IMG/VR virus record: IMGVR_UViG_3300050343_000035
Location: 1 to 40,541 of that record
Strand: one strand, 5' to 3'
Length of the DNA stretch: 40,541 nucleotides
DNA from: a virus
The notes beneath the pieces are model-generated. The model was not told where the DNA came from. It searched no databases and saw only the letters and a program-made list of their open reading frames with translations. Positions 18,316 to 37,437 of this stretch are shown in pieces. Numbering within the stretch: the stretch's first letter is position 1; the number at the start of each line of letters is the position of its first letter. Made by a program: the position numbers and the translations under genes.

Positions 18316-18538
18316 TGTTATCATCCTCATCTGGTTCTTCTATTTCAAACCCCATACTTATACTAAACCATACACCAGGTAATGGTGTAGGTAAAATAAA
18401 TGCACCTAAAGGAACATCCCCTTGTACAAATAAATCTCTAACCATTGTTGAGTCAGATTCTATTTCTGGAATATCCCAATCTTCGTTGTTTATAATATTA
18501 AAAAATCTTGCATTGACATCTGCTGGGTTCTTAGCCAA
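18302..18538 (-). CDS. Unknown small protein after portal, 78 residues
   Basis: The frame starts within the last codons of the portal gene and ends inside the start of the 111-residue gene, so it is tightly coupled on both sides. The middle (VPLGAFILPTPLPGVWFSISMGFE) is hydrophobic and beta-like, followed by an acidic C-terminus (IEEPDEDD). No motif or family was recognised. Short hypothetical genes directly after the portal are common in marine podoviruses. The opposite-strand frame over this stretch was judged a shadow. Confidence 0.5.
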   Translation of the reverse strand: MAKNPADVNARFFNIINNEDWDIPEIESDSTMVRDLFVQGDVPLGAFILPTPLPGVWFSISMGFEIEEPDEDDNNARW

Positions 18539-20315
18539 GAGGTCCTCCTGGTGGGAGTCCTGGTCCTGCTGCTAATTGTTCAGGTGGTAATCCTCCACCT
18601 AGTTGTGCTAAAACAGAAGCAATATCTGGTTCACCTTGTGGAACCTGTGGTCCACCTGCACCACCTAAAGCAGCTTCTTGTGGTGTCATTTCTGGTTCTT
18701 CTGGTGTATAAAACTTATCAAGTATCTCTGACATATTTTGTGGGTTTTTTCTTATCTCTATAGCTGCCATAGTTGCTTTACTATCTCCCTGTGCAGCTTG
18801 TGCCATTAATGATTCAAATAATACATTCTCTGCTTTTTCAGAGTTAACTCTGTTTTGCACTTGGGATATATTATCTATACCATCAAGGTTTTCTTGTAAT
18901 GTTTGCATATCTATTACGCCTTGTTGTTTTAGTTGCAGCCCTGTTATTATTTTTTGTGGTTCATCAAATCCTGCCATAACACCATAGACTCTTCTAGTCT
19001 TGTACATTTCAGCAATATCTGTTCCTGGGTCATAAGATTCTTTAAATGCAGTTCCTTTTCTAAATCCTGCAATAGGTTTTCTTTGACCTTTATACATAAT
19101 CTCATCCCACTCTAATCTTTTAGCATCTACTTCTTCTAGTGCATCAACTAATACTGTTTGATATTCTCTCACATGTAATGATGCTGATTGTCCTAGTTCT
19201 TCTAATCCTCTACCAGTAACAAAAGCATTAGGACTTTGTCCATCATCAGATACTGGATAAGACGCACCAAGTCTTAAATGTCTTTCAAGTCTATCTATTT
19301 GTTGAAACAACTGATAAGGCAAATTATTAGTTGGTTTGCTCACTTGCGAACCAGGTGTCAAGTAATTGACAGCGAATCTACCTTTTCTATATTGTCCAGA
19401 TTCTATCTCGCCAATGATGTTGGTTTCTGTGAACACAGCATCTTCCATAGCAATAACAGATAGAACATTAATTTTTGCCATATTTGACATCAAGCCAATT
19501 ACATGATGAAACTGACTTTGCATTTGGTCAAAGCTGTAACGCTTTGCTATGACAAATCTTGGTCCTGATTTAAGAGGGTTAGGAATGAAATCTAATATTA
19601 TTCTATTTTCAGGTAAGAACACATAAGTACCTTCGTTGTCATAATATTCTGCAACTACTTTACCTGTACCATCTGCGTTAGCCCATCCTTCATCATAACT
19701 AGAAGCATACGCCATAGTATTATATTCTGTACTTACTTCATCAAGTATTACATTTTTGTGTTTTGGATACATCTCTGCAAGTGTTTTATGAGGTACTCTT
19801 TGTACTACAGCCAACTCTGTTGGTTGTTGGTCTACGCCAAAGTATCCTGGATAACATAGATAAGGGTCTCTTATCTCTGCTACTGGATATGGTATTCCAT
19901 TAGCATCTTTTTTTTCTTTTAGTATCCATACAGCAAAACCATAACCAGGTAACCACCTACCTATTTGTGGTAGTTGTTTTTCTAGTTTTTGCATATCATC
20001 ATACGCATGTACGATTCTCTCTAGTTTCTCTGCTCTCTTAGTAGCTCTCTCTGAATCTTTATCATTGTATATATCTACTTTTAAATCTGGGGCTCTTCCT
20101 AATTTTTGTGCGAATCTTTCTAATGCAGACATCAACAAGTTAGGTGCTGGTAATTGTTTGTAGTCCATATCACGCATATCTTTACCTAGTAATGCTTTTA
20201 ATCCATCTGCACCACCATTCATGATTGCTCTTATGTTTGCTTTATCAGATACAAAATCTGAGTGCATAGCTCTAAGTTCATACACTCTTGAATAAAGCTC
20301 GTCAACTGTTTTCAT
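18531..20315 (-). CDS. Portal protein
   Basis: The protein has 594 residues from the ATG at 20315, which overlaps the terminase stop as ATGA; a TTG three codons upstream is possible but less likely. The sequence has the general features of podovirus-type portals: a helical N-terminus (VDELYSRVYELRAMHSDFV), a mixed wing domain around residues 100-300, a long helical stem-like stretch, and a Gly/Pro/Gln-rich disordered tail over the last 50 residues. It lies directly after the terminase gene, the expected position. The protein would form the 12-fold ring at one vertex that docks terminase and adaptor. Assignment is by context, size and general resemblance; no single diagnostic residue was used. 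Confidence 0.75.
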   Translation of the reverse strand: MKTVDELYSRVYELRAMHSDFVSDKANIRAIMNGGADGLKALLGKDMRDMDYKQLPAPNLLMSALERFAQKLGRAPDLKVDIYNDKDSERATKRAEKLERIVHAYDDMQKLEKQLPQIGRWLPGYGFAVWILKEKKDANGIPYPVAEIRDPYLCYPGYFGVDQQPTELAVVQRVPHKTLAEMYPKHKNVILDEVSTEYNTMAYASSYDEGWANADGTGKVVAEYYDNEGTYVFLPENRIILDFIPNPLKSGPRFVIAKRYSFDQMQSQFHHVIGLMSNMAKINVLSVIAMEDAVFTETNIIGEIESGQYRKGRFAVNYLTPGSQVSKPTNNLPYQLFQQIDRLERHLRLGASYPVSDDGQSPNAFVTGRGLEELGQSASLHVREYQTVLVDALEEVDAKRLEWDEIMYKGQRKPIAGFRKGTAFKESYDPGTDIAEMYKTRRVYGVMAGFDEPQKIITGLQLKQQGVIDMQTLQENLDGIDNISQVQNRVNSEKAENVLFESLMAQAAQGDSKATMAAIEIRKNPQNMSEILDKFYTPEEPEMTPQEAALGGAGGPQVPQGEPDIASVLAQLGGGLPPEQLAAGPGLPPGGPLG

Positions 20316-22234
20316 GTTCTCCAAACATCTATATCTATGTCTAGCCCTGAGTATCCACTAAAGCTAGGTTCATATTCCATACCCATTGTAGCAAGTCTTT
20401 CCTTTTGTAAACGCCTTATTGTTTTCATTGGAAACCAACTTGCCATAACTAAATCAGATTTCTGTCCAACGCTTCTACTCTTGTTTTGTGCAGAACTAAA
20501 ATATACTAACTGACTTGTATATAAGTTTACCTTTTCTTGTGCTTCAAAGCTACGATAAGGTAAATTAATTAGCTTTTGTTCAAACAGTGGTCTCATAGCT
20601 GTAACACCATATACTGGGTCATGCTTATTACCATAAGTTTGCGTACCTTCTAAAAAGATACCATGCTTACCTGCGAACTCTCTAATTGATTTATCTTGTC
20701 GTATCGCTCTTTGAAATCCATTCTCTTCAATAACCCAGTGTGCTAAGTTATATTTTTGAAACCAACTCTTTATTATTTCTAATGCTACTGGAATACCTCC
20801 ACCTAAACTATTCTCCATATCTATCATAAATAGTTTATCTGTCTGTTGGTCATACCCCCACAAAAACGCAGCTTGGTATCCTGTTGACGCAGGGTCAAGT
20901 CCTGCAATAAGTCTGACATTATTTGGTATGTGTCCTATGTCTCTGTTTTGGTCTCTACATTCTTCTATCTCTGGTCTGTCAAATAAACTCATACCATCTG
21001 GCATAGCTACATTAAGATACACCATCTCATAGATTGCTCTACCACCTGTAGTCTCTGCAGCTTTCTTTCTATCCATAAGCCATTTGTATGTTCTCTTCTT
21101 AGCCCACAACATACACTCTTGATGTGCGTCATTATCCCAATCAGATTTTGTACAAGCAGTATCATGTGCTTCTTCTACAATAGTTAACCATGATTCGTTG
21201 TCTAACAAATGTGAATACAAATCGTCATAGTGTTGTCTTGAACCTATTACAACCATAGCTGTATGTTCCTCTTTACGACTTGATAATGTTGTAGTCCACC
21301 AGTTTCTTGTGTTATCTCTTGATGCAGGTTGCATAGTAGAACTGTGGTCCTCAATGTCATCTGCAATAATTATGTCACAGTCTCTTGATAAAATTTTACC
21401 ACCTCTACCAATACCTACCATAGTAGGAGATTTAATACCAGTAACAGTACGAGTACCAACAGTAAAACCATTCTGTGACCAAGACTTACCAGTTCTACTT
21501 GTAGGTTTAAACTTAGGTCCAGGTCCACATATCTCTTCTATTAATAATTCGTTACTCTCTAGTTGGTCAAGTACAGAACTGACTGCGTTCTTTGAAATCT
21601 CTTCGTTACCACCAACCCATAATATTCTTATGTTTGGTTTTGTGCATATTAACCATACTGCAAAATGTATTAACAAATCAGTTTTACCATGTCGTGGTGG
21701 TGATAATATCATTTGCTGATTACCATGCTCTATTGCTTCTAAGATAGAATTAATCCATTTGATGTGAAAGTCTGGTGTTTCGTATGGGTCGCCTGTTTCT
21801 GTTTGAAAATATCTGTCTCTAAAATTTCTAAAGTCTTCTAGTGATTTCTCTGCTACCTGTGGTAACTCCCAGGTCTTTCTTGCTTCTTCTTGTTCTAAAT
21901 CTTCTATGTATGCTTGATACGCCATAGATACTGCTGCTACAGAAGTTTCAAGTATCTTTGCTACATCTTTTATAGTTGTTTTTTCTCTAAGTATATCTTT
22001 ACCTAAACCTGATTCTTTGAGGTCATTATAAACTACACCTCTACGACTTTGTACATTTTGTTTACTAGGTATAACTAATTCGTCTTCTGTTTGAATCCAT
22101 TCAACACCTTTAGCTTTAGCTCTTTTCTTTTGTGTTTGTATTCTGTTAGCACATCTATCGCTACAATATTTTGTACGCTTACCACTAAGAACTCTTTTAC
22201 ATCCTGCAGCGTAACATAATTTTCTATCTGACAT
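20312..22234 (-). CDS. terL: Terminase large subunit with N-terminal zinc finger and HTH
   Basis: The protein has 640 residues. The ATPase part shows a variant Walker A (SPPRHGKT, about 178-185), Walker B IIIADD (about 288-293) and a coupling-like segment (MVVIGSRQHYDDLY). The nuclease half has AGLDPASTGYQAAFLWGYD, WVIEENGF and DLVMASWF, giving candidate acidic metal ligands. Unusually, residues 7-28 hold a four-Cys zinc-finger pattern (C7, C12, C24, C28). Residues about 86-110 form a helix-turn-helix (TTIKDVAKILETSVAAVSMAY). A small-terminase-like DNA recognition module may thus be fused to the motor; no separate small terminase gene is obvious. It cuts and packages DNA into proheads. It overlaps the portal start (ATGA) and the end of a small zinc protein. 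Confidence 0.85.
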   Translation of the reverse strand: MSDRKLCYAAGCKRVLSGKRTKYCSDRCANRIQTQKKRAKAKGVEWIQTEDELVIPSKQNVQSRRGVVYNDLKESGLGKDILREKTTIKDVAKILETSVAAVSMAYQAYIEDLEQEEARKTWELPQVAEKSLEDFRNFRDRYFQTETGDPYETPDFHIKWINSILEAIEHGNQQMILSPPRHGKTDLLIHFAVWLICTKPNIRILWVGGNEEISKNAVSSVLDQLESNELLIEEICGPGPKFKPTSRTGKSWSQNGFTVGTRTVTGIKSPTMVGIGRGGKILSRDCDIIIADDIEDHSSTMQPASRDNTRNWWTTTLSSRKEEHTAMVVIGSRQHYDDLYSHLLDNESWLTIVEEAHDTACTKSDWDNDAHQECMLWAKKRTYKWLMDRKKAAETTGGRAIYEMVYLNVAMPDGMSLFDRPEIEECRDQNRDIGHIPNNVRLIAGLDPASTGYQAAFLWGYDQQTDKLFMIDMENSLGGGIPVALEIIKSWFQKYNLAHWVIEENGFQRAIRQDKSIREFAGKHGIFLEGTQTYGNKHDPVYGVTAMRPLFEQKLINLPYRSFEAQEKVNLYTSQLVYFSSAQNKSRSVGQKSDLVMASWFPMKTIRRLQKERLATMGMEYEPSFSGYSGLDIDIDVWRT

Positions 22235-23878: not shown

Positions 23879-24068
23879 CAGTATAAGAATAATTCAGTAT
23901 GACTAAGACTGTTTAAACAATTACCTAGGTATGAATAACTATTGACTAGGTTTGTACCAGATTAATTTTAAACAAAGAGGGGGTAGCCCATTAATTAATA
24001 TCCAGTATTTAATATCCAGTGAATAAGAAAGAAGCTGGAAGAGTGGGAAAAAATAATTAAAAGAAATA

Positions 24069-24097
24069 CACAGTTTAAACAGAGGTTGTCTTATAAT
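24069..24097 (+). promoter_or_regulatory. Candidate rightward early promoter overlapped by GTTTAAAC
   Basis: A perfect TATAAT (24092-24097) has ACAGTT at the -35 position (24069-24074, 17-base spacer). The palindrome core (24073-24080) covers the end of the -35 and the spacer, 11 bases before the -10. Transcription would be expected to begin about 7 bases after the -10, at the ATG at 24104, giving a leaderless message. Protein binding at the palindrome would block the polymerase. Confidence 0.55.
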
Positions 24098-24103
24098 GGA
24101 CTC

Positions 24104-24238
24104 ATGACATATACAGTAGACCACCCACTACATATAGTGGTAGCGACATCTAGTAGGTCCTTAACAAGAGGAGACCAAATGACTAACCTACCAATAAGTG
24201 GAATAATACTAAGTAGACGACCTAAGCGAGTTGAATGA
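24104..24238 (+). CDS. First early gene, 44 residues, possibly leaderless
   Basis: The frame starts at the ATG at 24104, six bases after the TATAAT at 24092-24097, so the message probably begins at or next to the start codon. An internal in-frame ATG at 24179 has a strong ribosome site (AGAGGAGA) and could give a 19-residue form. The protein (MTYTVDHPLHIVVATSS..., ending RRPKRVE) matches no family I know. Its 3' end overlaps the next frame (+1), which lacks a good start of its own. The two may therefore be one gene joined by frameshifting, or separated by a mutation or sequence error. It may alternatively act as a leader peptide. Confidence 0.45.
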   Translation: MTYTVDHPLHIVVATSSRSLTRGDQMTNLPISGIILSRRPKRVE

Positions 24239-24527
24239 CCATGAGCTTGAAGTCCTATCTAATTCAGTTAGAGAACAGAAGGATGCGAGACAGAAAAGAT
24301 TCATGAGCCAATTCCATGCAGGTATGCCAATAGCTATTACAACTGCTAGTGGAGAGACTTACCCAGCTTATATCTACAAGACTAAGAAAGCATCCATAGA
24401 TTACAAATACACTGTGGATTCTGATTATGTAGAATCATATCAAGCTATGAGAACAGTTACAGAGAAAGACCTAAGAACACTGGGTAGAAGTTGGATACAT
24501 CAATCCAGCAGTTCCTTCATCCTTTGA
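24231..24527 (+). CDS. Early protein, 98 residues, probably the middle part of a frameshifted gene
   Basis: The best start here is a TTG at 24231 overlapping the stop of the 44-residue frame, but the frame is open from 24213. The sequence is protein-like: an acidic helix (DDLSELNDHELEVLSNSV), then a small beta-rich region (MPIAITTASGETYPAYIYKTKK). The last 13 residues look non-native (serine run), while the +1 frame from 24484 to 24570 reads plausible protein (YINPAVPSSFEGKDTYNFKV) up to a TAG. The gene thus appears broken at both ends in the +1 sense. Programmed shifting, decay or sequence errors are all possible. No family was recognised. Confidence 0.45.
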   Translation: MNDHELEVLSNSVREQKDARQKRFMSQFHAGMPIAITTASGETYPAYIYKTKKASIDYKYTVDSDYVESYQAMRTVTEKDLRTLGRSWIHQSSSSFIL

Positions 24528-24656
24528 AGGTAAAGATACTTATAACTTCAAGGTGGTAACTACTGGCTAGAGTTATAATATTCTAGGAGGGTGTTTAAAC
24601 AGGCACCCTTTAGGAATCTTATAAGATTCAAACAAACAAAGAAAGAGGGAAACGAA

Positions 24657-25391
24657 ATGACTACTAAGAAAAAAACACTGAATGCAAAAGATTATCCAGC
24701 ATGGGTAAGTGAGTTAAAAGTAAGTAAGAAATCTCCTGAAGATTATCTGACTTCATTCGCTAACTGGTGTGTGAAGTATGCCATCAAGAATGGTGTTGGA
24801 GATACTGATAATCTAGGAGATAAGTTAAGCGTTCACATATCTAATACCAGAGGAAGAAAAACTACTAGTAATCACAATCAAGGTAAAGCAATAGGATTAT
24901 GTTACTCAACTGAATACTCTGAAGGTAATAGCATAAGAAGAATAGAGATAGATAGAGAGACCAGCGACCCACTTCAGGTCTTACAGATTGTTGCCCATGA
25001 AGTAAGTCATGCAGTGTTAGATGCTGGTGTAGGTCACAAGGGTAAATTTGTTGATGCAGTTTACTCAGTGTTTAAACTGGGAGGTATTCCAACTGCCACT
25101 ACTGTAACAGAGGAGTTCACTGAACTGATTCAATCATGGCTAGAGAAAGCTGGGAGCTATCCATATATTAAGTTTGTTGATGTACAAAGAAAGCAAACTA
25201 CAAGAATGGTTAAGCTCTACTGTCCAGATGTAGAATGTGATGGAGCAACTAAGAAATCTATAGAGCAAGGTCAAGGTACAATCTTTAGACTTTCATCATC
25301 TGTGGTAGACAAGAATGATTACTTCTTCTGCCCAGTGTGTATGAACAGAGCTTATGTAGATTCTCCAGTTCTTACTAACATCTATGTTTAA
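24657..25391 (+). CDS. SprT-like zinc metalloprotease, 244 residues
   Basis: I chose the ATG at 24657, which has AGAGGGA upstream; a GTG at 24591 lies too close to its AGGAGG and would begin inside the palindrome. The catalytic motif is VAHEVSHAVLD, with His114, Glu115 and His118, and a third candidate ligand His127 in GHKGKF. The C-terminus has a zinc ribbon (YCPDVEC and FFCPVC). This layout of HExxH plus a C-terminal ribbon is that of the SprT/Spartan-like family, which I recall from many actinophages. The role could be cleavage of DNA-protein crosslinks or of host DNA-bound proteins during early infection. The stop codon lies inside a GTTTAAAC copy, and an intrinsic terminator follows 35 bases later. 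Confidence 0.75.
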   Translation: MTTKKKTLNAKDYPAWVSELKVSKKSPEDYLTSFANWCVKYAIKNGVGDTDNLGDKLSVHISNTRGRKTTSNHNQGKAIGLCYSTEYSEGNSIRRIEIDRETSDPLQVLQIVAHEVSHAVLDAGVGHKGKFVDAVYSVFKLGGIPTATTVTEEFTELIQSWLEKAGSYPYIKFVDVQRKQTTRMVKLYCPDVECDGATKKSIEQGQGTIFRLSSSVVDKNDYFFCPVCMNRAYVDSPVLTNIYV

Positions 25392-25425
25392 ACAACTATA
25401 ACACTATCCCCCTAGTGTGCGAGAG

Positions 25426-25452
25426 CCCCAGAGAAATCTGGGGTTTTTGTTT
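25426..25452 (+). terminator. Intrinsic rightward terminator
   Basis: CCCCAGA (25426-25432) and TCTGGGG (25437-25443) form a 7-bp GC-rich stem with a GAAA tetraloop, followed by TTTTTGTTT. It ends the first early unit after the SprT-like gene. The gap 25453-25730 then holds two palindrome copies and a candidate promoter, but no gene. Confidence 0.85.
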
Positions 25453-25610
25453 ATGCCTAAGCCCACGATACAGAGGATTTAAGAGCACCATATTGATTGT
25501 GGAACTGACACCCATAGTTGTCATATACTATTGACACAGAGCAAATAAGGACACACAATATATAGTATGTTATTTCTTACCCTGTTTAAACAGAGAGAAA
25601 ATCAATAGGT

Positions 25611-25635
25611 GTTTAAACAAGTCAAGAACTATTAT
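25611..25635 (+). promoter_or_regulatory. Candidate second early promoter with palindrome
   Basis: The core at 25611-25618 is followed after 11 bases by TATTAT (25630-25635). This is the same core-to-minus-10 distance as at the 24092 promoter. A second core lies at 25584-25591, 27 bases from the first (start to start), giving a tandem pair like a cooperative operator. A TTGACA at about 25536 belongs to no good -10. The promoter would drive the operon from 25731 to 30647. Confidence 0.45.
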
Positions 25636-25730
25636 TAAAATAATTGTAAATAGATGTTGTATAAATCTGATAGGTAGTAATGTAGGTAATAGTTAATGAA
25701 CGATATTCATTGGCTCCTTTAGTTAGGAGG

Positions 25731-25877
25731 ATGGAGAGGAATGTTACTAAGGTTGCGAAGTCTAGTGCAGAAATGTTAGCTAGATATAAAGTGCATATAA
25801 ACAGATTAGTTCCAGTTTGCACCACTAACTCTCCAGATTCCTTGAAGGTAAACAAACAAGAAAGAGGTAAACAATGA
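25731..25877 (+). CDS. Small basic protein, 48 residues
   Basis: The frame ends in TGA overlapping the ATG of the next gene (ATGA), which supports translation. AGGAGG stands directly against the ATG at 25731, unusually close. The same frame is open further upstream, with a TTG at 25710 and protein-like residues (NERYSLAPLVRRM), so the true start may be earlier. The protein is basic and helical at first (VAKSSAEMLARYKVHINRL), with a Ser/Lys-rich tail. No family was recognised. An antisense frame over it was rejected as its shadow. Confidence 0.5.
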   Translation: MERNVTKVAKSSAEMLARYKVHINRLVPVCTTNSPDSLKVNKQERGKQ

Positions 25878-26806
25878 GTGAGATTAAAGAAACAATTACG
25901 AAAGGACAGGCAGTAGATATTGCAGATGCAAATATCTATAACGCTTCTGATAAAGCAGTGTCTCTATCAGGTAATAAAGAAAGAGAAGGACATAGTGCAG
26001 TAGTACATGTTCCAAAGAGAGAGGTAGACTTTGATGCTGACTTAGATTTTCTAAGTGTAGATGTCAATGGTGTCCATTCATATAGAGATGAGTTGTTTAA
26101 ACAACGAGTCAAGGTAACAGATAGTAGATACGAAGAGGGTGTCCAAGTATATGGTTACGCTTGTAAGACTACAAGAAGTGATAACAACAGAAAAAGCTAT
26201 GAAGATTCTTATTTCTCTATTGGTTTCAAGAACAGAGAACAAGTTATACAGTTCGCTAACAAATGTTTAGACATGTTGTTAGTAGTAGAAGAAACCAAAG
26301 CACTTGAAGAAAGATATGGAGGACAGTGGTGCGACCATCCAGATGCACTAGCTCACTTCCCAAGTCTATTAGAACAAACCAGATGCAAGACTGGTAGATA
26401 CTATTGGGATAGTAGTTTAAACAAGGCAGTAGAAATTAATAAGTCTACTGACCCAGATATTCTGGAAGCACACCAAGACTTCAACACTGATGAGGATGGT
26501 AACTTCACGCAAGACTGGACTAACGATAACGCAGAAGAATTGTTAGCAGGAATGGAAGAAGGTATCAAGTCTGGCTGGGATAATGATAACTTCAATGGTA
26601 TCAGGGTAGCTGACTTACAGACTGGTGTTGGTAGCTATGGAGCAGGACAAGGTATCGTAAGAAGCAAAGGTAAAGACCCAGCAGATAAAAGAAAGAAGCA
26701 GTGGACAACAACATTCTATTACACAGATGGAACTACTGATACAAGGATAGGTTACTGGGAGAGACACTCCCATGGAAATGTCCAGAGATTAGAGTGGAAG
26801 GAATAA
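25874..26806 (+). CDS. Unknown early protein, 310 residues
   Basis: It starts with ATGA coupling after a short basic gene. The protein is acidic and soluble, without membrane segments. The middle contains VYGYACKTTRSDNNRKSYED and GFKNREQVIQFANKCLDMLLVVEE, then a Cys/His-containing stretch (GGQWCDHPDALAHF). The C-terminus is beta-rich and ends with aromatic and basic residues (TTFYYTDGTTDTRIGYWERHSHG). I do not recognise a family. Two palindrome copies lie inside it, read as LFKQ and SLNK. It is the largest gene in the middle of the early operon and a candidate for a replication or host-takeover function, but nothing in the sequence proves this. Confidence 0.55.
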   Translation: MSEIKETITKGQAVDIADANIYNASDKAVSLSGNKEREGHSAVVHVPKREVDFDADLDFLSVDVNGVHSYRDELFKQRVKVTDSRYEEGVQVYGYACKTTRSDNNRKSYEDSYFSIGFKNREQVIQFANKCLDMLLVVEETKALEERYGGQWCDHPDALAHFPSLLEQTRCKTGRYYWDSSLNKAVEINKSTDPDILEAHQDFNTDEDGNFTQDWTNDNAEELLAGMEEGIKSGWDNDNFNGIRVADLQTGVGSYGAGQGIVRSKGKDPADKRKKQWTTTFYYTDGTTDTRIGYWERHSHGNVQRLEWKE

Positions 26807-26820
26807 AAGTAAGGAGTAGC

Positions 26821-26846
26821 AGGGAGATGTGCAACACCATCTCCCT
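26821..26846 (+). terminator. Hairpin before the 67-residue gene
   Basis: AGGGAGATG (26821-26829) pairs perfectly over 9 bp with CATCTCCCT (26838-26846) around an 8-base loop. No T-run follows; instead a GTTTAAAC copy starts 5 bases later (26851). It may be a partial terminator or an mRNA-processing hairpin inside the early operon. Confidence 0.45.
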
Positions 26847-26869
26847 GACTGTTTAAACAAGGAGTAAAC

Positions 26870-27073
26870 ATGGCGATAAATAAAAAAGATAACAAAGTAA
26901 GTGAGATAACAAAAGAAGTACAAAGTAGTTACGACTTTTTAGAGCAAGGATATCACATGCTATCCAGTTCTAAATTAAAAGATAACAACGAACTTGATAA
27001 CAAATTCTACGACCTTATGACTTCTATTGAGGAGCTGAAGGATGAAGTAGAACTACTAGAGGAGGATGAGTAA
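26870..27073 (+). CDS. Small acidic coiled-coil-like protein, 67 residues
   Basis: The ATG at 26870 is preceded by AAGGAG, the end of a palindrome copy (GTTTAAACAAGGAG) that therefore doubles as ribosome site. The protein starts MAINKKDNKVSEITKEVQSS. A long helical acidic C-terminal half (MTSIEELKDEVELLEEDE) probably forms a coiled coil. Its stop overlaps the next ATG (TAATG). No family was recognised; a small regulator or partner protein is possible. Confidence 0.6.
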   Translation: MAINKKDNKVSEITKEVQSSYDFLEQGYHMLSSSKLKDNNELDNKFYDLMTSIEELKDEVELLEEDE

Positions 27074-27423
27074 TGGCTAATCAAATTAAATCTTTTCAAG
27101 GATATGTGAATCAATCTTTGATGGATGCAGGTCAACATAAACCAAATGACTACTTAATAATAATGACTAGGTTGTTTAAACAAGGACACTTAAACATGGA
27201 GCAGGTCTTTATGTTTATGAGAACCCTAGTTAGAAACCATAAGCTACAAGCCTATAGAAAATATCTAGACGCCAACTACGATATGAGAAGACAACTCATA
27301 GAAACAGTAGAGTATGGATGGATAACAAAAGATGGCGAGTATACAGAGCACTGTTTAAACAAGCTAAAAGAATTAGGATATGGAGAAACTTTAGGCGAGT
27401 CAACAGTAAAGGAGGAGGAGTAA
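27073..27423 (+). CDS. Unknown early protein, 116 residues
   Basis: It is coupled by TAATG to both neighbours. The protein is helical, rich in Met, Leu, Lys and Tyr, with no cysteine cluster or membrane segment. It holds two palindrome copies read as LFKQ (RLFKQGHLNM) and CLNK, in different frames relative to the core, so the DNA word rather than one peptide is kept. The tail (VKEEE) is encoded by the ribosome site of the next gene. No family was recognised; the size and helical composition would suit a small DNA-binding or antirepressor-type protein, but that is speculative. Confidence 0.55.
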   Translation: MANQIKSFQGYVNQSLMDAGQHKPNDYLIIMTRLFKQGHLNMEQVFMFMRTLVRNHKLQAYRKYLDANYDMRRQLIETVEYGWITKDGEYTEHCLNKLKELGYGETLGESTVKEEE

Positions 27424-27755
27424 TGGTAGCACACCCAACAATATGGATAGAGGGAACTCTTACTATAAATGGTAAAGAGTATCCATTCGCAGTTGATAAT
27501 GATAGTGACAGTGGATTTGACCATGATGGATTCAGTTCACAAGCGTATAACATTGTTAATGATTTGAATGATTTAGTTAGCAAGATGGAGCTTTATAAAT
27601 CATTGATAGATGACACAATAATAGAGGAGTTAGAGGGTGTGTTTAAATGTGATGAACATACTGAAGATGTATTGGTAAAAAAATATGATGACTTATACAA
27701 AAGAGTAATCACAATATTAAAGAAGATGCAGAATGATGTTCGCAGTAACGACTAA
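27423..27755 (+). CDS. Unknown early acidic protein, 110 residues
   Basis: I chose the ATG at 27423, which overlaps the previous stop and follows GGAGGAGG. A longer frame beginning upstream inside the previous gene has no such signal. The first 45 residues look beta-rich (TIWIEGTLTINGKEYPFAV, then DSDSGFDHDGF). The rest is helical and charged (NDLNDLVSKMELYKSLIDD and DDLYKRVITILKKMQND). No known domain was recognised. Its end overlaps the start of the zinc protein gene by 23 bases. It belongs to the same early operon. Confidence 0.6.
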   Translation: MVAHPTIWIEGTLTINGKEYPFAVDNDSDSGFDHDGFSSQAYNIVNDLNDLVSKMELYKSLIDDTIIEELEGVFKCDEHTEDVLVKKYDDLYKRVITILKKMQNDVRSND

Positions 27756-27954
27756 AGAATGTATCCATTGTAGGAAGACAGGTAGCGTAATGGTGGACTC
27801 AGAAAAGTACATTGAGTTTACCCAGACACCAAGACATCAACGCAGATTGATACAAGATATATTTCCTGAACAGAGCAGAGCAGAGAGAGAGCAACTGTTA
27901 ACTGGTGTACATCCAGAATGTTTTGAAGATATGTTTAGAGGAGAAGGAGAATAA
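27733..27954 (+). CDS. Actinophage-type small zinc protein, 73 residues
   Basis: The N-terminus has CIHCRKTGSVMV, a C-x2-C pair. The later part reads RRLIQDIFPEQSRAEREQLL followed by GVHPECFEDMF. The pattern 'C..C...G.V.V ... IQ..FP....REQL..G.HP.C...LF' is one I recall from many actinobacteriophage genomes, where the protein is small and uncharacterised. The two N-terminal cysteines with the C-terminal His and Cys could bind one zinc. The start is ATG at 27733, or the ATG one codon later. The finding is mainly useful as a pointer to an actinobacterial host. The gene is followed by a palindrome copy at 27965. Confidence 0.65.
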   Translation: MMFAVTTKECIHCRKTGSVMVDSEKYIEFTQTPRHQRRLIQDIFPEQSRAEREQLLTGVHPECFEDMFRGEGE

Positions 27955-28075
27955 ATACATACATGTTTAAACAAGGTGGGAGCTTTCTTTGTTTACTTCT
28001 ACCTTGTACCTCAACAGTAGTTTACAATAGAGAAAATAAGGACTAAGATTAAATAGGAGATTACATAGGAGAACT

Positions 28076-28237
28076 ATGATTTATCAAGTACAAAGTACAA
28101 GTGTTTATGGTGGTACTGTGACATGGCAGTACGACAATGAACATGATGCGAAGTGCAAGGTAAGGGAACTCAAAGACTTAGGTGGTATGTTTATCGTTAG
28201 GTTAATTGAGATTCCAATAGAACAACAAGTAGTTTAA
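28076..28237 (+). CDS. Small unknown protein, 53 residues
   Basis: The ATG at 28076 has AGGAGA 5 bases upstream. The protein starts MIYQVQSTSVYGGTVTWQYD and continues as an alternating beta-strand/helix fold (KCKVRELKDLGGMFIVRLIE). The pattern looks like a small globular domain. The stop TAA lies inside a GTTTAAAC copy. The gap upstream (27955-28075) holds a palindrome copy and a 7-bp inverted repeat ACAAGGT/ACCTTGT (27971-27977/28001-28007), but no gene. No family was recognised. Confidence 0.6.
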   Translation: MIYQVQSTSVYGGTVTWQYDNEHDAKCKVRELKDLGGMFIVRLIEIPIEQQVV

Positions 28238-28263
28238 ACAACTATCAATAAGAAGGAGGAAGT

Positions 28264-28479
28264 ATGCCAAATGGCAAAGGGGGATTCTTTACCCCAGAAA
28301 ATCTAAAGAAGTGGAGTATGGATTTATCTAACGCCTGTGGAGGAGCAGTAGTTATTAAGTCCAAGGTGTTGAGGAAGCCAGAACCAAGAGTTGCAAACAT
28401 ATTACTAGAGGAATTCGTAGTTGCTTATAATGAACAGTTAGTAATTATGAATGAAGAAAGTAAGGAGGAAGAAGAGTAA
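28264..28479 (+). CDS. Unknown early protein, 71 residues
   Basis: It has a strong ribosome site (AAGGAGG, 5 bases before the ATG). The protein begins MPNGKGGFFTPENLKKWSMD and holds one Cys. It contains a hydrophobic beta segment (GGAVVIKSKVL) and a helix (ANILLEEFVVAYNEQLVIM), and ends in a Glu run that overlaps the ribosome site of the next gene. No family was recognised. The TAATG junction couples it to the membrane protein gene that follows. Confidence 0.55.
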   Translation: MPNGKGGFFTPENLKKWSMDLSNACGGAVVIKSKVLRKPEPRVANILLEEFVVAYNEQLVIMNEESKEEEE

Positions 28480-28673
28480 TGGAATTATTTATATGGATAC
28501 CAATAATGCTAACGACTATAACATTCTTAATTGTTCTAGTGTTGGTACTGGTTGCACACATACTAACTAATAAACCAATGAGGGTTATCAGTTTAAACAA
28601 TGATGCAATAGATTTTATTGATGAGTTACAAATAGATATTTATGAGGAGGACTATGATATTACAGACAATTAA
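28479..28673 (+). CDS. Single-pass membrane protein, 64 residues
   Basis: Residues about 2-30 form one long hydrophobic segment (LFIWIPIMLTTITFLIVLVL continuing into VLVAHIL). A short basic patch (TNKPMR) and an acidic cytoplasmic-like tail (DELQIDIYEEDYD) follow. By the positive-inside rule the tail should face the cytoplasm. It sits in the early operon, away from the lysis-type genes, so an early membrane role such as superinfection exclusion or a membrane anchor is more likely than a holin, but is not shown. One palindrome copy is read as SLNN. Confidence 0.6.
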   Translation: MELFIWIPIMLTTITFLIVLVLVLVAHILTNKPMRVISLNNDAIDFIDELQIDIYEEDYDITDN

Positions 28674-28968
28674 TGATAAAGATATTACTGGTGTAGAGGG
28701 CAAGGTATCCTACGCTAATGGTGTTGAGATGGCGTTTCATCACATACCAGAAGGTAAACATGAGGACAGAATAAACGCATTAACACTACAAATAAATACT
28801 GCTAGAGAGATTGAAAAGAATCTGTCTCTACAAAGAGCTAGACTATTAGAATATATTGTAGAAGAAAAGAAGCTATCAGTTATACAGTGTGCAAACATTA
28901 TGAAGGTAAGTAGACAAAGAGTATATAAGATAATTGAATCTAACAAAGACAAACAGGAGGAAGAATAA
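28654..28968 (+). CDS. Helix-turn-helix DNA-binding protein, 104 residues
   Basis: I chose the ATG at 28654, just after GAGGAGG; an ATG 12 bases earlier lacks a ribosome site. Residues 1-40 are mixed, and about 40-72 form a long charged helix (INALTLQINTAREIEKNLSL). Residues about 74-96 are a clear helix-turn-helix (LSVIQCANIMKVSRQRVYKI) like the recognition part of sigma-4 or RNA polymerase sigma-like domains. A protein with a dimerising helix and a C-terminal HTH is a natural candidate to bind a palindrome, and this is the only stand-alone HTH protein I see in the early region. Linking it to GTTTAAAC is inference. It is coupled by TAATG to the next gene. Confidence 0.65.
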   Translation: MILQTINDKDITGVEGKVSYANGVEMAFHHIPEGKHEDRINALTLQINTAREIEKNLSLQRARLLEYIVEEKKLSVIQCANIMKVSRQRVYKIIESNKDKQEEE

Positions 28969-29873
28969 TGGCTAAGTACGACCCAGATAAATATGAAACA
29001 GTAGAAGATAGATTAAAAAAATTCTGGAAGGATAACCCAGATGCAAGAATATCTACAGAGATACTACACATAACACAAGATGGTACTTGTGTCACTATTA
29101 AAGCAGAGGTGTTTAAACAGGAAGAAGATGCACGACCAGTTGCAACAGGTATAGCACAAGAAACTAAAGGACAAGGTGGATTCGCTAACGCTGATGCATG
29201 GATGGAGAACTGTGAAACAAGTGCGATAGGTAGAGCGTTGGCTAACTGGAAGTACCAAGGTAGCAACAAGGCTAGACCAAGCAAAGAAGAGATGTCTAAA
29301 GTGGGTGCTCAAAACAAAGTACAAGTTACTAAGGTTGACAATCGTAAGAAAGAAAACAAACCTAGTGATGAGAGCCTGTCTAGTTTAGAAGAAGCTAAGG
29401 CAAAGTTTGATGAAGACATTGGAGTTAATAAAGAAGTTACCTCTAGTAACGCAAGTCAAATAGCCAAGCTAATTGCAGGATGGGGATTGCCTAAAGCTAC
29501 AGAAGATGAAGTAAAGAAGCAATCTTTTAATGAATTTATTGGAGCAGGACACAGTAAAGATGTAGAGAGTTGGGATAACGATACCATTGGAGCGTACTTA
29601 GATTTGTTTGAATCTATTGCAAACGAACAACCTATACCTTCTGATGTAAAGATTGTTGAGGATGTATTTGGAGAAGTCAAGGACCTAACTAAAGCCTGTC
29701 CTGATTGTGGTGCGACTGAGTGGATAGAGGACAACAGACAGAAGAAACAAGATGAACCAGAAAAGTTTGGTAAGATACCAAGCTGGAGTTGTAACAAGTA
29801 TCCAGCTGGTGGTAAGAATGGTTGTGGTTGGACTGGATGGGGAGATACTGACTGCCCAACAGAATGGCTCTAG
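28968..29873 (+). CDS. Actinophage-type protein with C-terminal zinc ribbon, 301 residues
   Basis: The N-terminal 115 residues (KYDPDKYETVEDRLKKFW, later ENCETSAIGRALANWKYQGS and SKEEMSKV) match a family I recall as very common in actinobacteriophages. It is found in early or replication regions and its role is not firmly established; a DNA-metabolism function is suspected. The middle is a Lys/Glu-rich linker and a helical region. The C-terminus is a zinc ribbon (CPDCGATEW, then WSCNKYPAGGKNGCGWTGWG). The gene starts with TAATG coupling after a good ribosome site. It overlaps the following gene by 10 bases, and the nuclease gene comes next but one, which supports a joint role in DNA handling. 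One palindrome copy is read as VFKQ. Confidence 0.65.
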   Translation: MAKYDPDKYETVEDRLKKFWKDNPDARISTEILHITQDGTCVTIKAEVFKQEEDARPVATGIAQETKGQGGFANADAWMENCETSAIGRALANWKYQGSNKARPSKEEMSKVGAQNKVQVTKVDNRKKENKPSDESLSSLEEAKAKFDEDIGVNKEVTSSNASQIAKLIAGWGLPKATEDEVKKQSFNEFIGAGHSKDVESWDNDTIGAYLDLFESIANEQPIPSDVKIVEDVFGEVKDLTKACPDCGATEWIEDNRQKKQDEPEKFGKIPSWSCNKYPAGGKNGCGWTGWGDTDCPTEWL

Positions 29874-30160
29874 AAGATAACAATATATCAATTAATCTGG
29901 ATAAGTTAAAAGACAAGTTAAAGAAACGCTATCCAGATTATAACTTTGATATACAACCAGAGCCAGATACACGACACAAGTCGCCATTCATTTGTAAAGA
30001 CAATGATATATTTTATACAGATGCAGAGGGTAATAGATATTGTGGAGCAAGATACAAGCATGTAGAAGATGACAATATATACAAGTGGGAGTACAGAGTT
30101 TGTCATGCACTGGTAGAAAAAGCAGACCAAGGTGCAGACCAAGATGAACTCCCATTTTAA
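29864..30160 (+). CDS. Unknown early protein, 98 residues
   Basis: It begins inside the end of the zinc-ribbon gene. The protein has a basic helical start (NLDKLKDKLKKRYPDYNFD), then a Cys/His-containing globular part (SPFICKDNDIFY, NRYCGARYKHVE, EYRVCHALVEK). Three cysteines and two histidines could form a metal site. It ends with an acidic tail (DQDELPF), which resembles the C-terminal tip of single-strand DNA-binding proteins (acidic residues ending in PF). That tip suggests contact with host replication or repair proteins. No OB-fold was recognised, so the SSB idea is only a hint. Confidence 0.55.
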   Translation: MALEDNNISINLDKLKDKLKKRYPDYNFDIQPEPDTRHKSPFICKDNDIFYTDAEGNRYCGARYKHVEDDNIYKWEYRVCHALVEKADQGADQDELPF

Positions 30161-30161
30161 A

Positions 30162-30647
30162 ATGGAACAAAGCGATAGACCATATCAAGATAGAGTTAAA
30201 GATAAAGTAGGCAAGGAAGCAGAAGATAACTTTGAAATCTATCTAACACAACTAGGGTTAGTCAAACAAAAACAATGGATGAAGACTGGCACTAGCCCAT
30301 GGGAACATGAGATGCCACTGTTCTGGTTGTACACATTCATAGCAGTTAATCCAGACTACCTAGTGTACATTCAAAACGAACTACGATTGTGTGAAGTTAA
30401 AGGTACAACTAAGTTAAAGCTAGATGACTACCAAAAGCTATATCAAATGCACGAAAAGACTAGGTTGTTTAAACAAGTAGATGTTGGTATATATTATTAC
30501 AACAGTTTTTATAAAGGTTTTAAATGGATACCATTTGTTCAAGTACAAGAAATGTGGAACGAAATGAAACACTGGGGAACATATCCTGAAAAAGATTTCC
30601 AAGGTAACCCTAAGTTGTTTAAACAACTACCCTTTAATCGTTTATAA
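30162..30647 (+). CDS. PD-(D/E)XK nuclease, 161 residues
   Basis: I start it at the ATG at 30162, right after the stop of the previous gene; a longer form from a GTG at 30132 is possible. The core motif is NPDYLVYIQNELRLCEVKGT, giving Asp65 and Glu78-x-Lys80. The signature is PD...(D/E)xK, with an upstream acidic helix (KEAEDNFEIYL) that can supply the fourth residue. This is the fold of RecB-type, VRR and Holliday-junction nucleases. Being the last gene of the early operon next to the zinc-ribbon protein suggests a role in replication, recombination or host DNA breakdown. Two palindrome copies (LFKQ twice) lie in its 3' half. It converges with the leftward metallophosphoesterase gene. Confidence 0.65.
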   Translation: MEQSDRPYQDRVKDKVGKEAEDNFEIYLTQLGLVKQKQWMKTGTSPWEHEMPLFWLYTFIAVNPDYLVYIQNELRLCEVKGTTKLKLDDYQKLYQMHEKTRLFKQVDVGIYYYNSFYKGFKWIPFVQVQEMWNEMKHWGTYPEKDFQGNPKLFKQLPFNRL

Positions 30648-30651
30648 AGGG
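30630..30651. terminator. Convergent hairpin between early and late operons
   Basis: CCCTTTA (30630-30636) and TAAAGGG (30645-30651) form a 7-bp stem with an 8-base loop, spanning the overlapping stop codons of the two converging operons. Directly beside it is the 16-bp palindrome at 30613-30628. No strong T-run is present, so termination may depend on both elements or on a bound protein. Confidence 0.4.
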
Positions 30652-31814
30652 CAATAATTATCCCATCCCTTGTCACTTATAGTGAAAGTCAGGACTCCAG
30701 GGTGTGACCACAGTCCAGTTTGTGCAGTAAAGTCTATGCTCTGGTCTATTGATGGTGCTTGAAACCAAGTTCTATCACCTTGTTGTTTCATTCTTAGGTG
30801 ATGGTAATGAGCAGTTACTAAAATCTCTGCATCTCCTACTGGTAGCCACCCATACATTTGACCCTTCCACCACTTCTCAATCTTAGCTTCTGGATTACCA
30901 CTACCACCTCCAGTCATGTGACCATGCGTAAAGGCAACTGTCTTACCCTTTACCATTATCGTTTGATGAAAGCCAGTAGGCACATTTACTTCTACCTTTC
31001 CATATCTTTCTGGGTTAGCCTTCATAATCTCTTCACATATCTGTAAGTGCATTGTGTCAGAGTTATCTAATCTGTTTGTAGATACTTGTCCTTTACTTGT
31101 TCTTGACATCTCACCATGATTACCAGGAACACCTGCCAAGATTAACTTAGGTGCGTGAGGTAGGAAGGTATCAATCGTCTTCATTATCATTGACCTTGCT
31201 AATGCGTATTGTTCAATCAGTGACAAAGAAACATTGTGTGGTTGGCTTTCAAAGAAAAAAGGCGTACAGTTTTCTGTGAGGTCACCTAAACCTACCATAT
31301 AGATTTCATCTATTTGTACTCCAAGTTTACGCAGGTCTTTAATCCTGTTCACACCATCTTGTAACGCCCTGTCGTATCTGTTGATAGTGTTCTCAACTCC
31401 ATAATCTTTTTTTCCAAGTTGCCAGTCACTCATAAACCACATGAACGCAGTGTCACCTGGGTTAAACTTCTTAGTTATAGGAGGTTTCTTCTTAGCTTGT
31501 TTAAACAAGGCTTGAAAATATTTGTCATGTCCTGGCTTTTTCTTTTTGACTATACCTTTAAACGCATAAAAGGTTTCTGTCGCACCACCTTTAAGTTGTA
31601 CATTCCAACTAGAAGCACGAACACTACCTTCTATCTGGTAATGTTTAGGGTCAAATCCCCATTCTTTAAGTATGGAATCTAGTTTGTTTCTGTAGTGTGG
31701 GTCTGTTCCAACATGTGTGATTTCGCCCATGCCAGTCTGTTCATTGACTTCTAATCCTGGTTGCCATCCAGTCTTATAGAAATTATTTCCCCACTCTTCT
31801 GGTACTTTAGGCAT
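30642..31814 (-). CDS. Metallophosphoesterase, 390 residues
   Basis: A strong ribosome site (AGGAGG) precedes the ATG. The five calcineurin-like metal motifs are visible in order: MSDWQ (Asp130, with Gln132 in place of the usual His), GLGDLTEN (Asp178), PGNHGE (Asn232-His233), THGHM (His297, His299) and AHYHH (His336, His338). The first 110 residues are an unrecognised N-terminal domain. Phages carry such enzymes as phosphodiesterases or nucleotide/DNA phosphatases; I recall related proteins in actinophages. It is the last gene of the leftward late operon, after the lysis-type genes. The substrate cannot be told. One palindrome copy (ALFKQAKK) lies in the linker after the N-terminal domain. 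Confidence 0.75.
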   Translation of the reverse strand: MPKVPEEWGNNFYKTGWQPGLEVNEQTGMGEITHVGTDPHYRNKLDSILKEWGFDPKHYQIEGSVRASSWNVQLKGGATETFYAFKGIVKKKKPGHDKYFQALFKQAKKKPPITKKFNPGDTAFMWFMSDWQLGKKDYGVENTINRYDRALQDGVNRIKDLRKLGVQIDEIYMVGLGDLTENCTPFFFESQPHNVSLSLIEQYALARSMIMKTIDTFLPHAPKLILAGVPGNHGEMSRTSKGQVSTNRLDNSDTMHLQICEEIMKANPERYGKVEVNVPTGFHQTIMVKGKTVAFTHGHMTGGGSGNPEAKIEKWWKGQMYGWLPVGDAEILVTAHYHHLRMKQQGDRTWFQAPSIDQSIDFTAQTGLWSHPGVLTFTISDKGWDNYCPL

Positions 31815-33698: not shown

Positions 33699-33727
33699 AT
33701 TATATCATACTTGTTTAAACAGGTTTA
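33699..33727 (-). promoter_or_regulatory. Candidate leaderless promoter for the lysis-type cluster, with palindrome
   Basis: On the minus strand TATAAT occupies 33704-33699, and a GTTTAAAC core (33713-33720) lies 8 bases upstream, inside the -35/-10 spacer. No consensus -35 is present (TAAACC at 17 bases). Transcription would begin close to the ATG at 33691. The core also contains the stop codon of the upstream 99-residue gene. Confidence 0.5.
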
Positions 33728-34014
33728 GGATTATCTGATTTAACTTTAGCTATGTGGTCAGCCCAGGTAGTTGTACCATTGACACCATCCCAGTACTGCA
33801 TATCTAGTTGGTCTGGAATACTAGGGTATTCATTAGCTCTAGCAGTCTTATAACCATTAGCTTCTTTATCTAATTGTTTAGCTAATTCGTTATCAGCCCA
33901 AGTATTTAAAGTTGCTTCTATTTCATCAGCAGTTAAATCTACTTGAACACCATCAACTACTATATGAGTTGGTGCTTCTAGACCTGCTTTAATTTCTTCT
34001 ATTGATTGTGCCAT
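33715..34014 (-). CDS. Tail-fibre assembly-like protein, 99 residues
   Basis: The N-terminal half (EEIKAGLEAPTHIVVDGVQV) resembles small proteins encoded after tail fibres. The segment EYPSIPDQLDMQYWDGV in the C-terminal half is a familiar pattern ('YPS..DQLD..YWD') in XkdW-like or fibre-associated proteins of marine phages. It lies at the end of the fibre gene set. A role as fibre chaperone or tip protein is likely. The stop codon lies inside a GTTTAAAC copy (33713-33720). It starts directly after the 220-residue gene. Confidence 0.6.
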   Translation of the reverse strand: MAQSIEEIKAGLEAPTHIVVDGVQVDLTADEIEATLNTWADNELAKQLDKEANGYKTARANEYPSIPDQLDMQYWDGVNGTTTWADHIAKVKSDNPKPV

Positions 34015-34677
34015 TTATTTTTTAACCCCATAAATATAAAAATTACCACTTGCTATATTTCCACTTGAAGATACTAGTTTTATACCAGTTGCATTTACAC
34101 CACCATATCTCGCAGCCCATACTGTAACCCCAAAAGCATTTCCATTACTTGTAGCAGAGAATATTAAATTATTTCCTATTGCTGAACATATACCCTTAGT
34201 ACCATCATTCATTGTTAAATCAAAACTAAGTTGATGTGCATAACTTCCACCATTACTTCTTAAATTGAACGCAATATCTACTTCACCAGTTTGTGATTGA
34301 TTTACACCTTCGTATGAAGATGTGTTATTTACACCTTGTAAGTTATACGCTTTATAATATGTTCCAGTAATATTAGCTGGAGTATCTCCACCAGATTGAA
34401 AAGTTAATCTTAGTTGTGTGTCATCAGTAGCCATTATTAAATCTTGTATTACTAACTTGTAAGAAGCATAAGTTGTATTATCACGAAAATTATTTAGTTG
34501 TACAGCAGCAGAACTACTAGCTGTTGCAGATTTTAATAATACGAAGTTATTATTATCTGTTAATCCACTAATAAAAGAACTAGCAATAGCACCATCTTTA
34601 ACTAAGACACCATCAATGGTTACACCAGAAGTAGGTGTCTTTTCATCTATTGTATCTACCTTAATTATACTAGACAT
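34015..34677 (-). CDS. Tail-fibre/tip protein, 220 residues
   Basis: The first 40 residues (MSSIIKVDTIDEKTPTSGVT, then VDGAI-like KDGAIASSFISGL) are of the short attachment type seen at the start of phage fibre accessory proteins. The rest is beta-rich and Ser/Asn-rich, as in receptor-binding or fibre-tip domains (DTQLRLTFQSGGDTPANITG). No enzymatic motif was seen. It lies between the 129- and 99-residue fibre genes with TAATG coupling. A virion surface role in host recognition is inferred. Confidence 0.55.
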   Translation of the reverse strand: MSSIIKVDTIDEKTPTSGVTIDGVLVKDGAIASSFISGLTDNNNFVLLKSATASSSAAVQLNNFRDNTTYASYKLVIQDLIMATDDTQLRLTFQSGGDTPANITGTYYKAYNLQGVNNTSSYEGVNQSQTGEVDIAFNLRSNGGSYAHQLSFDLTMNDGTKGICSAIGNNLIFSATSNGNAFGVTVWAARYGGVNATGIKLVSSSGNIASGNFYIYGVKK

Positions 34678-35066
34678 TATTCAGCCAGTTCTTCCCAAGC
34701 TCCTGTGTTCTCATTCCAAACATATTGCTTACCATCATCTGGCATAGCAACTGGTGCTTCCCAACTCCAAGTACTTTCATTAAGTACCCACTGACTATAA
34801 GGTTTAGGTGCTATGAATACATCATTAGTTGCATCATAAGTATATCCTATACCTGCATAGTTACCTCTAAAAGGAGTTCCCTCTCCACTGTGTGCATTAG
34901 CACTGGTGTTATAGGAAGTTCTTTTACAAGTCTGTCCTCTAAAATCTCCATACCACGCTTCCCAATCAGCAAAGCCATCTGGTAAGTCAGTTGTATTGTC
35001 CTCATTGATACCAACAATGACTTCTGTCACTGTGTTGTTATCGTTTATAAATGCGTAATGTGCCAT
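34677..35066 (-). CDS. Conserved tail-fibre-associated protein, 129 residues
   Basis: The protein starts MAHYAFINDNNTVTEVIVGI and includes CKRTSYNTSANAHSGEGTPF, NYAGIGYTYDATNDVF and PKPYSQWVLNESTWSWEAP. This set of motifs ('MAHYAF.D....V..V..G.....', 'GYTYD...D.F..PKPY.SW.L') is very common beside fibre genes of marine podoviruses and myoviruses. It is probably a receptor-side or fibre-tip protein with a small beta domain. Its exact role is not established. The gap to the next gene upstream (35067-35121) holds no gene. Confidence 0.7.
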   Translation of the reverse strand: MAHYAFINDNNTVTEVIVGINEDNTTDLPDGFADWEAWYGDFRGQTCKRTSYNTSANAHSGEGTPFRGNYAGIGYTYDATNDVFIAPKPYSQWVLNESTWSWEAPVAMPDDGKQYVWNENTGAWEELAE

Positions 35067-35121
35067 ATCTATCTCCTATTATATCAGCTAAATGTGATTG
35101 TACCTGTGTTAATTCTTTTCA

Positions 35122-37250: not shown

Positions 37251-37435
37251 TATAAATCATTCCAACTTGTTGAGTAAAATTTTACTTTGTTACTTGTTGT
37301 ATTGTAATAAATATCTCCTGCTGAACTTACATTAGCAGCAGGGTCAGAAGATAAATTCTTTAAATTTAAAGCACACTGCATAGCAACATTGTTAGTTGTG
37401 CTTGTGCTTATTGTGTTTACTTTAACATTAGCCAT
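37250..37435 (-). CDS. Short fibre attachment-module protein, 61 residues
   Basis: The protein (MANVKVNTISTSTTNNVAMQ..., then SSAGDIYYNTTSNKVKFYST) corresponds to the N-terminal module of the two glycine-rich adhesins and ends where their glycine-rich part would begin. It could be a truncated third copy, a capping protein or a spacer. The ATG at 37435 is at the edge of a palindrome copy (37436-37443) that also contains the stop of the 643-residue fibre gene. It couples to adhesin B by TAATG. No frameshifted remnant of a glycine-rich extension follows. Confidence 0.6.
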   Translation of the reverse strand: MANVKVNTISTSTTNNVAMQCALNLKNLSSDPAANVSSAGDIYYNTTSNKVKFYSTSWNDL

Positions 37436-37437
37436 GT

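Follow-up and report, generated by a model that had tools for sequence, protein, structure and literature searches.

The locus and its repeated word

The window analysed here is the whole of IMG/VR virus record IMGVR_UViG_3300050343_000035, a stretch of 40,541 bases that is strongly enriched for an 8-bp palindromic word, GTTTAAAC, and that carries a gene for a SprT-like metalloprotease in the part where the word is densest (Table 1). The pairing of this word with this gene recurs in other phages and is the subject of this report.

The word is present in 31 exact copies, compared with a mean of 1.31 and a maximum of 5 in dinucleotide shuffles, and it ranks first among the over-represented 8-mers of the window under a third-order Markov model (31 observed versus 1.9 expected). 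Markov models of order 1-6 expect 1.4, 1.5, 1.9, 3.8, 6.9 and 17.3 copies, the last figure being inflated because the 7-mers within the word derive from the word itself. An earlier note on this DNA had claimed 31 copies where about one or two were expected, with 18 of them in 6.7 kb; these counts proved correct, and the observed number exceeds both the order 5 and the order 6 expectations that the note had proposed as a check. The 18 copies lie within 23911-30624 (scan statistic over the window, P = 5e-5), and the 16-mer said to be present twice, AGTTGTTTAAACAACT, is found at 3499 and 30617. Sequences that differ from the word at one position show no enrichment within the window, and the unit is therefore the 8-mer in its exact form. 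By the set of open reading frames (ORFs), 19 copies are fully inside an ORF, 8 are between ORFs and 4 run across a start or stop codon.

Table 1. Coordinates in the window of the SprT-like gene, the exonuclease gene and the copies of the word
Feature	Coordinates	Strand	Basis
SprT-like metalloprotease gene, 244 residues, HEVSH...H zinc site, C-terminal KQTTRMVK...C ribbon	24657..25391	+	PHROG 6361, family and motif alignment
Proposed word reader: segment coding the SprT C-terminal ribbon, residues ~180-235	25194..25361 (approximate)	+	AlphaFold2 confidence score, tracking of motif and word
Exonuclease gene, bait for relatives	30642..31814	-	PHROG 284; 80 relatives
Two GTTTAAAC copies in the ORF-poor stretch ahead of the early genes: 23911, 24073	23911..24080	.	
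GTTTAAAC in the sprT leader	24593..24600	.	
GTTTAAAC copies inside sprT (25070) and over its stop codon (25386)	25070..25393	.	
Intergenic GTTTAAAC pair: 25584, 25611	25584..25618	.	
GTTTAAAC copies: 26095, 26415, 26851, 27174, 27353	26095..27360	.	
GTTTAAAC copies: 27965, 28232, 28591, 29111	27965..29118	.	
GTTTAAAC copies: 30467, 30617	30467..30624	.	
GTTTAAAC in the exonuclease gene, minus-strand codons LFKQ; synonymous-codon test site	31499..31506	.	
Nine dispersed GTTTAAAC copies: 820, 3499, 4471, 6697, 7416, 10392, 14446, 16094, 21505	820..21512	.	
Three dispersed GTTTAAAC copies: 33713, 37436, 38998	33713..39005	.	

Selection on the word among relatives

Among relatives collected with the exonuclease, word density is bimodal: 31 loci have ~0.6-2.6 copies per kb and 46 have no more than ~0.2, and abundance is all-or-none even where exonuclease identity to that of the window is 88-92%. 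In full records, GTTTAAAC is found 20-34 times in each of five word-rich relatives and at most once in each of five word-poor relatives. On the tree of the exonuclease, the word label changes at least six times across well-supported branches and nine times on the best tree. Kinship among the sequences inflates significance throughout this work and the contigs are often partial; contigs retrieved by word pattern served as leads only.

The copy within the exonuclease gene separates DNA sequence from protein sequence. At this site GTTTAAAC is present in all 31 word-rich phages, encoding LFKQ, LFKH or LFKR, and in none of the 46 word-poor phages, 35 of which encode the identical LFKQ by means of ATTTAAAC or ATTCAAAC. 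Across approximately six independent pairs, presence of the word in the exonuclease gene tracks the word-rich or word-poor label. Word sites are also conserved between word-rich genomes, at 12 of 17 sites between the window and G003 (versus 12% for other 8-mers of equal composition) and 18 of 24 between G001 and G003 (versus 15%); in two comparisons with relatives that lack SprT, 0 of 3 and 0 of 8 sites are conserved. The DNA word itself is under selection. An origin by chance, codon bias or mutation bias can appeal to the fact that LFKQ, which the word encodes, is a tolerable peptide, but it is refuted by the Markov models, the shuffles, the synonymous-codon test and the site conservation, and its probability is negligible.

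Pairing of the word with a SprT-like gene

The SprT open frame begins upstream at GTG 24591, and ATG 24657 is the likely start codon. The PHROG 6361 profile matches all 37 family members (E 7e-14 for the window protein), while Pfam SprT-like (PF10263) matches 24 of the 37 at E<=0.01, with the window protein below the cut-off at 0.23. H114, E115, H118 and H127 (window protein numbering) are invariant across the 37 members and form an HExxH motif with a third histidine. AlphaFold2 models of SprT-like proteins have predicted local distance difference test (pLDDT) scores of 78 and 89.5. Searching PDB sequences with the profile of SprT returned weak Spartan matches alone (E 0.35-0.49), and a PADLOC scan of early proteins returned nothing informative. 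One homologue, from a Bordetella phage, is labelled 'antirestriction protein' by annotation only.

The gene was found in 11 word-rich and no word-poor exonuclease relatives. A pattern scan added 17 word-bearing contigs with the gene, the majority of which are not related to the window. Four word-poor relatives whose contigs extend beyond the early region (L056, L066, L068 and L083) lack the SprT gene together with several neighbouring genes. In an iterative family search of long records, which could miss small or fast-changing families, SprT was the sole family common to the word-rich records, namely the window and its kin, a GC-rich group (G011, G017, G018, G023 and G024), G026, G032, Methylophilales phage Venkman and Dinoroseobacter phage R26L; it was absent from the word-free kin G006, G007 and G010. 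The earlier note had held that relatives with the same genes but without the word would count against it; word-free relatives do exist, but because they also lack the SprT gene they do not do so.

The note had further suggested a phage-encoded regulator. A phage-encoded factor is retained here in the form of the SprT-like gene, but the helix-turn-helix (HTH) protein of ~104 residues that it had singled out (gene 28642-28968) was rejected as the reader, being present in 17 word-rich and 10 word-poor relatives. The family search of long records found no HTH family common to word-rich phages, and a LexA-like HTH was likewise rejected as a general reader since it is confined to one GC-rich word-bearing group, where a small winged protein of this type is encoded beside the terminase (L101:3892-4173 and relatives).

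The word found from the protein side

Annotated phages and additional loci were then considered that had been picked by SprT protein alone, with no use of the word. GTTTAAAC is present in 34 copies in Venkman, 20 in R26L (0.4 expected, at a GC content of 63%), 17 in Dinoroseobacter phage R5C and 16 in Pseudanabaena phage Pan1 (0.2 expected). Arthrobacter phage Yang has no GTTTAAAC, and its top word is a one-letter variant, GTTTACAC (20 versus 0.7), which is also found in Honk (33 copies), Intolerant (40), Floof and 4A and whose carriers are Arthrobacter, Microbacterium and Streptomyces phages. Pooled over ten genomes or loci, GTTTACAC is observed 190 times versus 0.7, with one-mismatch neighbours almost nil. 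Serratia phage MQ-4, Escherichia phage ep3, Achromobacter phage Mano and Pseudomonas phage Persinger have few copies (4-6), one of which lies just 5' of sprT in each; in Mano, Persinger and MQ-4, sprT is directly 3' of a gene for a single-stranded DNA-binding protein. Most of the 85 SprT loci in the protein-only collection are strongly enriched for GTTTAAAC, GTTTACAC or both. SprT loci L348, L361, L369, L388 and L396 are enriched for the two together and are possible intermediates in a change of word.

The hosts of word-bearing phages comprise alpha- and betaproteobacteria, a cyanobacterium (by label) and actinobacteria. In the 6.4-Mb genome of Micromonospora okii, 12 of 14 word copies are in one 47.5-kb prophage stretch that holds sprT (P = 2.5e-24), and five bacterial genomes tested showed no general excess of the word. 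These observations bear on the proposal that the reader of the word is a conserved host protein, which the phage SprT cuts or controls. Such an arrangement could produce the co-occurrence of gene and word, and SprT-like phage peptidases have been proposed to cleave host proteins (PMC7824862), but the breadth of the hosts, the lack of a general excess in the five genomes and the variation of the word with the SprT C-terminus (described below) make it improbable.

A methylation or restriction word, served by a host or phage methyltransferase, is a further alternative, and the earlier note had offered a host-methylated word in this sense. The model would be HIP1 (GCGATCGC), a cyanobacterial word of the host chromosome that is tied to DNA methyltransferases (PMC4390886). 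Like HIP1, the word described here is an exact 8-mer iterated throughout the genome, and GTTTAAAC is a palindrome; unlike HIP1, it occurs in phages and is tied to SprT. No methyltransferase family is common to the word-rich phages, the scans of window proteins yielded no methyltransferase, GTTTACAC is non-palindromic, and the word follows a phage gene across differing hosts. The methylation proposal is therefore abandoned as very unlikely.

The C-terminal ribbon and the class of word

The C-terminal zinc-ribbon segment of SprT from word-bearing phages follows the pattern K-Q-x-T-R-M-x-K-x-x-C..C-G-Y..R-T-T-x-K-W..C-P. In AlphaFold2 models, pLDDT is mostly 84-94 at residues 181-230 of the SprT-like protein, and a C-terminal beta unit is predicted with fair confidence; the compact model has weak Foldseek matches, among them small metalloproteases, Wss1 and proteins with zinc fingers or zinc ribbons. 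Under a simple rule for calling the motif, the word is enriched in 86 of 109 motif-positive loci versus 1 of 14 motif-negative loci (Fisher P 2e-7). FP1, Epa43, Celaena, Armstrong and their kin have a SprT without the ribbon motif and lack the words. Two of these, the Microbacterium phages Celaena and Armstrong, have 12 and 15 copies of GCGATCGC (versus 1.6 and 2.4 under an order-3 model); in Armstrong a CTACAATAGAAGTAT-like motif is present as well, in six copies.

Altered C-termini accompany other words. In a branch with the sequence QPTRLVKLEC (L343, L350, L351, L355 and L399), three of five loci have ATTTAAA 19-23 times versus 1.2-1.5 expected, and L367, which has an altered SprT C-terminus, has CTTTACAG 24 times versus 0.37 expected, on both strands. 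With whole-protein identity held below 0.5, the class of word is predicted correctly in 41 of 78 cases by 44 C-terminal columns versus 24 of 78 by the protease part, and sets of 44 random N-terminal columns under the same filter yield a mean of 21 of 78 and a maximum of 34. Residue-level specificity columns were inseparable from phylogeny.

Placement of copies

Copies between genes are in excess in R26L (5 of 11 in the annotated part, 0.6 expected), Yang (6 of 12, 1.1 expected) and Venkman (13 of 32, 4.2 expected), and the remaining copies in these phages are inside genes or over gene ends. Of 51 word-bearing loci, 25 have a copy in the 200 bp immediately 5' of sprT, versus 5.2 expected. In several relatives of the window, this leader copy is within a TACCTTGTTTAAACTG-like sequence with TATACTG approximately 15 bases further on and thus appears to overlie a probable -35 region. 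Many copies in Honk are in repeated promoter-like blocks. A promoter element only is ruled out, as many copies are intragenic.

The distribution along the genome differs among phages. Copies are clustered in G001, G003, G032 and Venkman, whereas spacing is more even than random genome-wide in R26L (coefficient of variation 0.38, P<0.001), Pan1, Yang, Intolerant and Honk. The suggestion in the earlier note that the word marks the early region thus applies to the window and its kin but not to the latter five phages. Even spacing is what favours the idea that the words are marks on phage DNA that serve its packaging, replication or segregation or the organisation of the nucleoid, SprT being a structural or clearing factor; the strong clustering in the other four genomes counts against this idea, which has a low probability.

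The main rival explanation is stoperator-like regulation, in which SprT or a partner acts mainly as a repressor or roadblock and the copies serve as operators and dispersed elongation blocks. In mycobacteriophage L5, an HTH repressor reads a 13-bp asymmetric site that is found in promoters and short intergenic gaps and is oriented with transcription; in L5 and cluster A, more than 20 such short sites are scattered over the genome, including at a promoter, and a monomer reads the asymmetric site (PMC9283540). Both systems have short sites dispersed over a phage genome and also at a promoter, with one phage-encoded protein. The intergenic excess in R26L, Yang and Venkman, the copies that many phages have at the sprT promoter or close to it, the promoter-like blocks of Honk and the early-region clustering in the window all favour such regulation. 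Against it, approximately half or more of the copies are intragenic and on both strands, several phages have even genome-wide spacing, a protease domain would not be needed, and GTTTAAAC cannot encode direction because it is a palindrome. With an 8-bp word that is often intragenic, a metalloprotease gene and no HTH reader, the word system departs from a stoperator system in the features that define one. Stoperator-like regulation is considered unlikely as the main role, although it could coexist with docking of the SprT-like protein at the word.

Comparison with known protease systems

Spartan/SPRTN and Wss1 are DNA-dependent proteases whose action on DNA-protein crosslinks involves no sequence word. 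The SprT-like protein shares with them the HExxH...H zinc site and, as proposed here, a DNA-binding part, while the sequence and fold similarity found is weak. In the IrrE-DdrO and CapP-CapH systems, an HExxH protease is tied to a system of DNA sites that a separate repressor reads, and this repressor is cut. The combination of an HExxH protease with DNA sites is similar, and CapP is among the weak fold matches, but the family search of long records found no shared separate repressor.

ArdC of plasmid R388 is an antirestriction metalloprotease with a DNA-binding part that has been compared structurally with the SprT domain of Spartan; it binds through its N-terminal domain and prefers single-stranded DNA without sequence preference (PMC7213743). 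The SprT-like protein resembles ArdC as a metalloprotease of a mobile element with a proposed DNA-binding part, and differs in having an iterated word, none being known for ArdC. Searches of openly available published papers found nothing relevant for GTTTAAAC or GTTTACAC with phages. For SprT together with over-represented motifs, they found a single item, a review of jumbo phages that proposes cleavage of host proteins by SprT-like peptidases, in which a DNA word is absent (PMC7824862). A survey of Microbacterium phages describes repeats other than this word (PMC7302621). The pairing of the word with SprT seems to be undescribed in the papers searched.

Other features of the window

Approximately 1.5 kb at 22730-24231 has no convincing gene and separates left-reading from right-reading gene blocks; an early control region may be located there. 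A second over-represented 8-mer family, CCACCACC/GGTGGTGG, occurs in many places (41 versus 6) and possibly reflects glycine-rich repeats. The adjacent genes at 35122-36246 and 36231-37250 both match PHROG 2295 and are likely a tandem duplication. The gene at 1807-2805 encodes an SU10-type major capsid protein (Pfam SU10_MCP, E 1e-47). For the low-GC actinobacterial host suggested in the earlier note no pointer was found, the capsid protein being SU10-like.

Interpretation

The sequences show the word itself, its dependence on the SprT gene, its tracking of the C-terminal motif, selection on its DNA sequence and the excess of copies ahead of sprT; direct binding of the word by the SprT-like protein is an inference, considered likely. 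The favoured reading, held with some confidence, is that the SprT-like protein encoded by the phage has the word as its cognate DNA site and reads it via the C-terminal ribbon. The C-terminal segment would read GTTTAAAC, or GTTTACAC, CTTTACAG or ATTTAAA in other branches, and the protein would dock at dozens of sites across the phage genome. Through the copy near its own promoter it would regulate its own gene, a step for which the chances are judged to be even. Once docked, it would act as a protease on whatever proteins occupy phage DNA, for example host silencers, complexes of restriction or defence, and stalled complexes, and host DNA would be spared where the word is rare. Clearance of host proteins would be in keeping with the dispersal of the sites, with the protease site and with the analogy to SprT/Spartan and ArdC, but local proteolysis as the main purpose is put forward only tentatively.

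Several observations weigh against this reading. G032, the lone word-rich record that is motif-negative, keeps the ribbon on inspection, and the motif rule is therefore imperfect. A further 23 motif-positive loci are under the enrichment cut-off; some are short or low-copy, and L368, L377, L385, L395 and ep3 have the motif and are simply low-copy. All five loci of the QPTRLVKLEC branch are among these 23, and two of them have no clear word. If the prediction of word class is filtered on C-terminal identity instead, the C-terminal and N-terminal parts perform approximately equally, so prediction from the ribbon is support rather than proof. Foldseek searches with the AlphaFold2 models gave no significant match, the best being mostly metalloproteases, including Wss1 and CapP. 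In L036, an 11.7-kb contig, all 13 words fall within the first 5.5 kb, the other 6.2 kb being free of them, and SprT was not found; this contig is perhaps chimeric or recombinant. The protease activity of ArdC is dispensable (PMC7213743). Finally, P values are not strict because the sequences are related.

A broader and more speculative possibility is that the system provides widespread phage self-recognition, in which a metalloprotease with its own sequence-specific DNA reader uses an 8-bp address, present dozens of times in the phage genome, to confine cleavage of host proteins to phage DNA, and address and reader diversify together. If true, this would reveal how phages distinguish their own DNA from that of the host and would provide a function for PHROG 6361, a protein family that is now unexplained. 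One DNA address in unrelated phages of proteobacteria and actinobacteria would then be tied to one enzyme family, and the co-varying words and ribbons would be naturally suited as a set from which to learn a DNA-recognition code.

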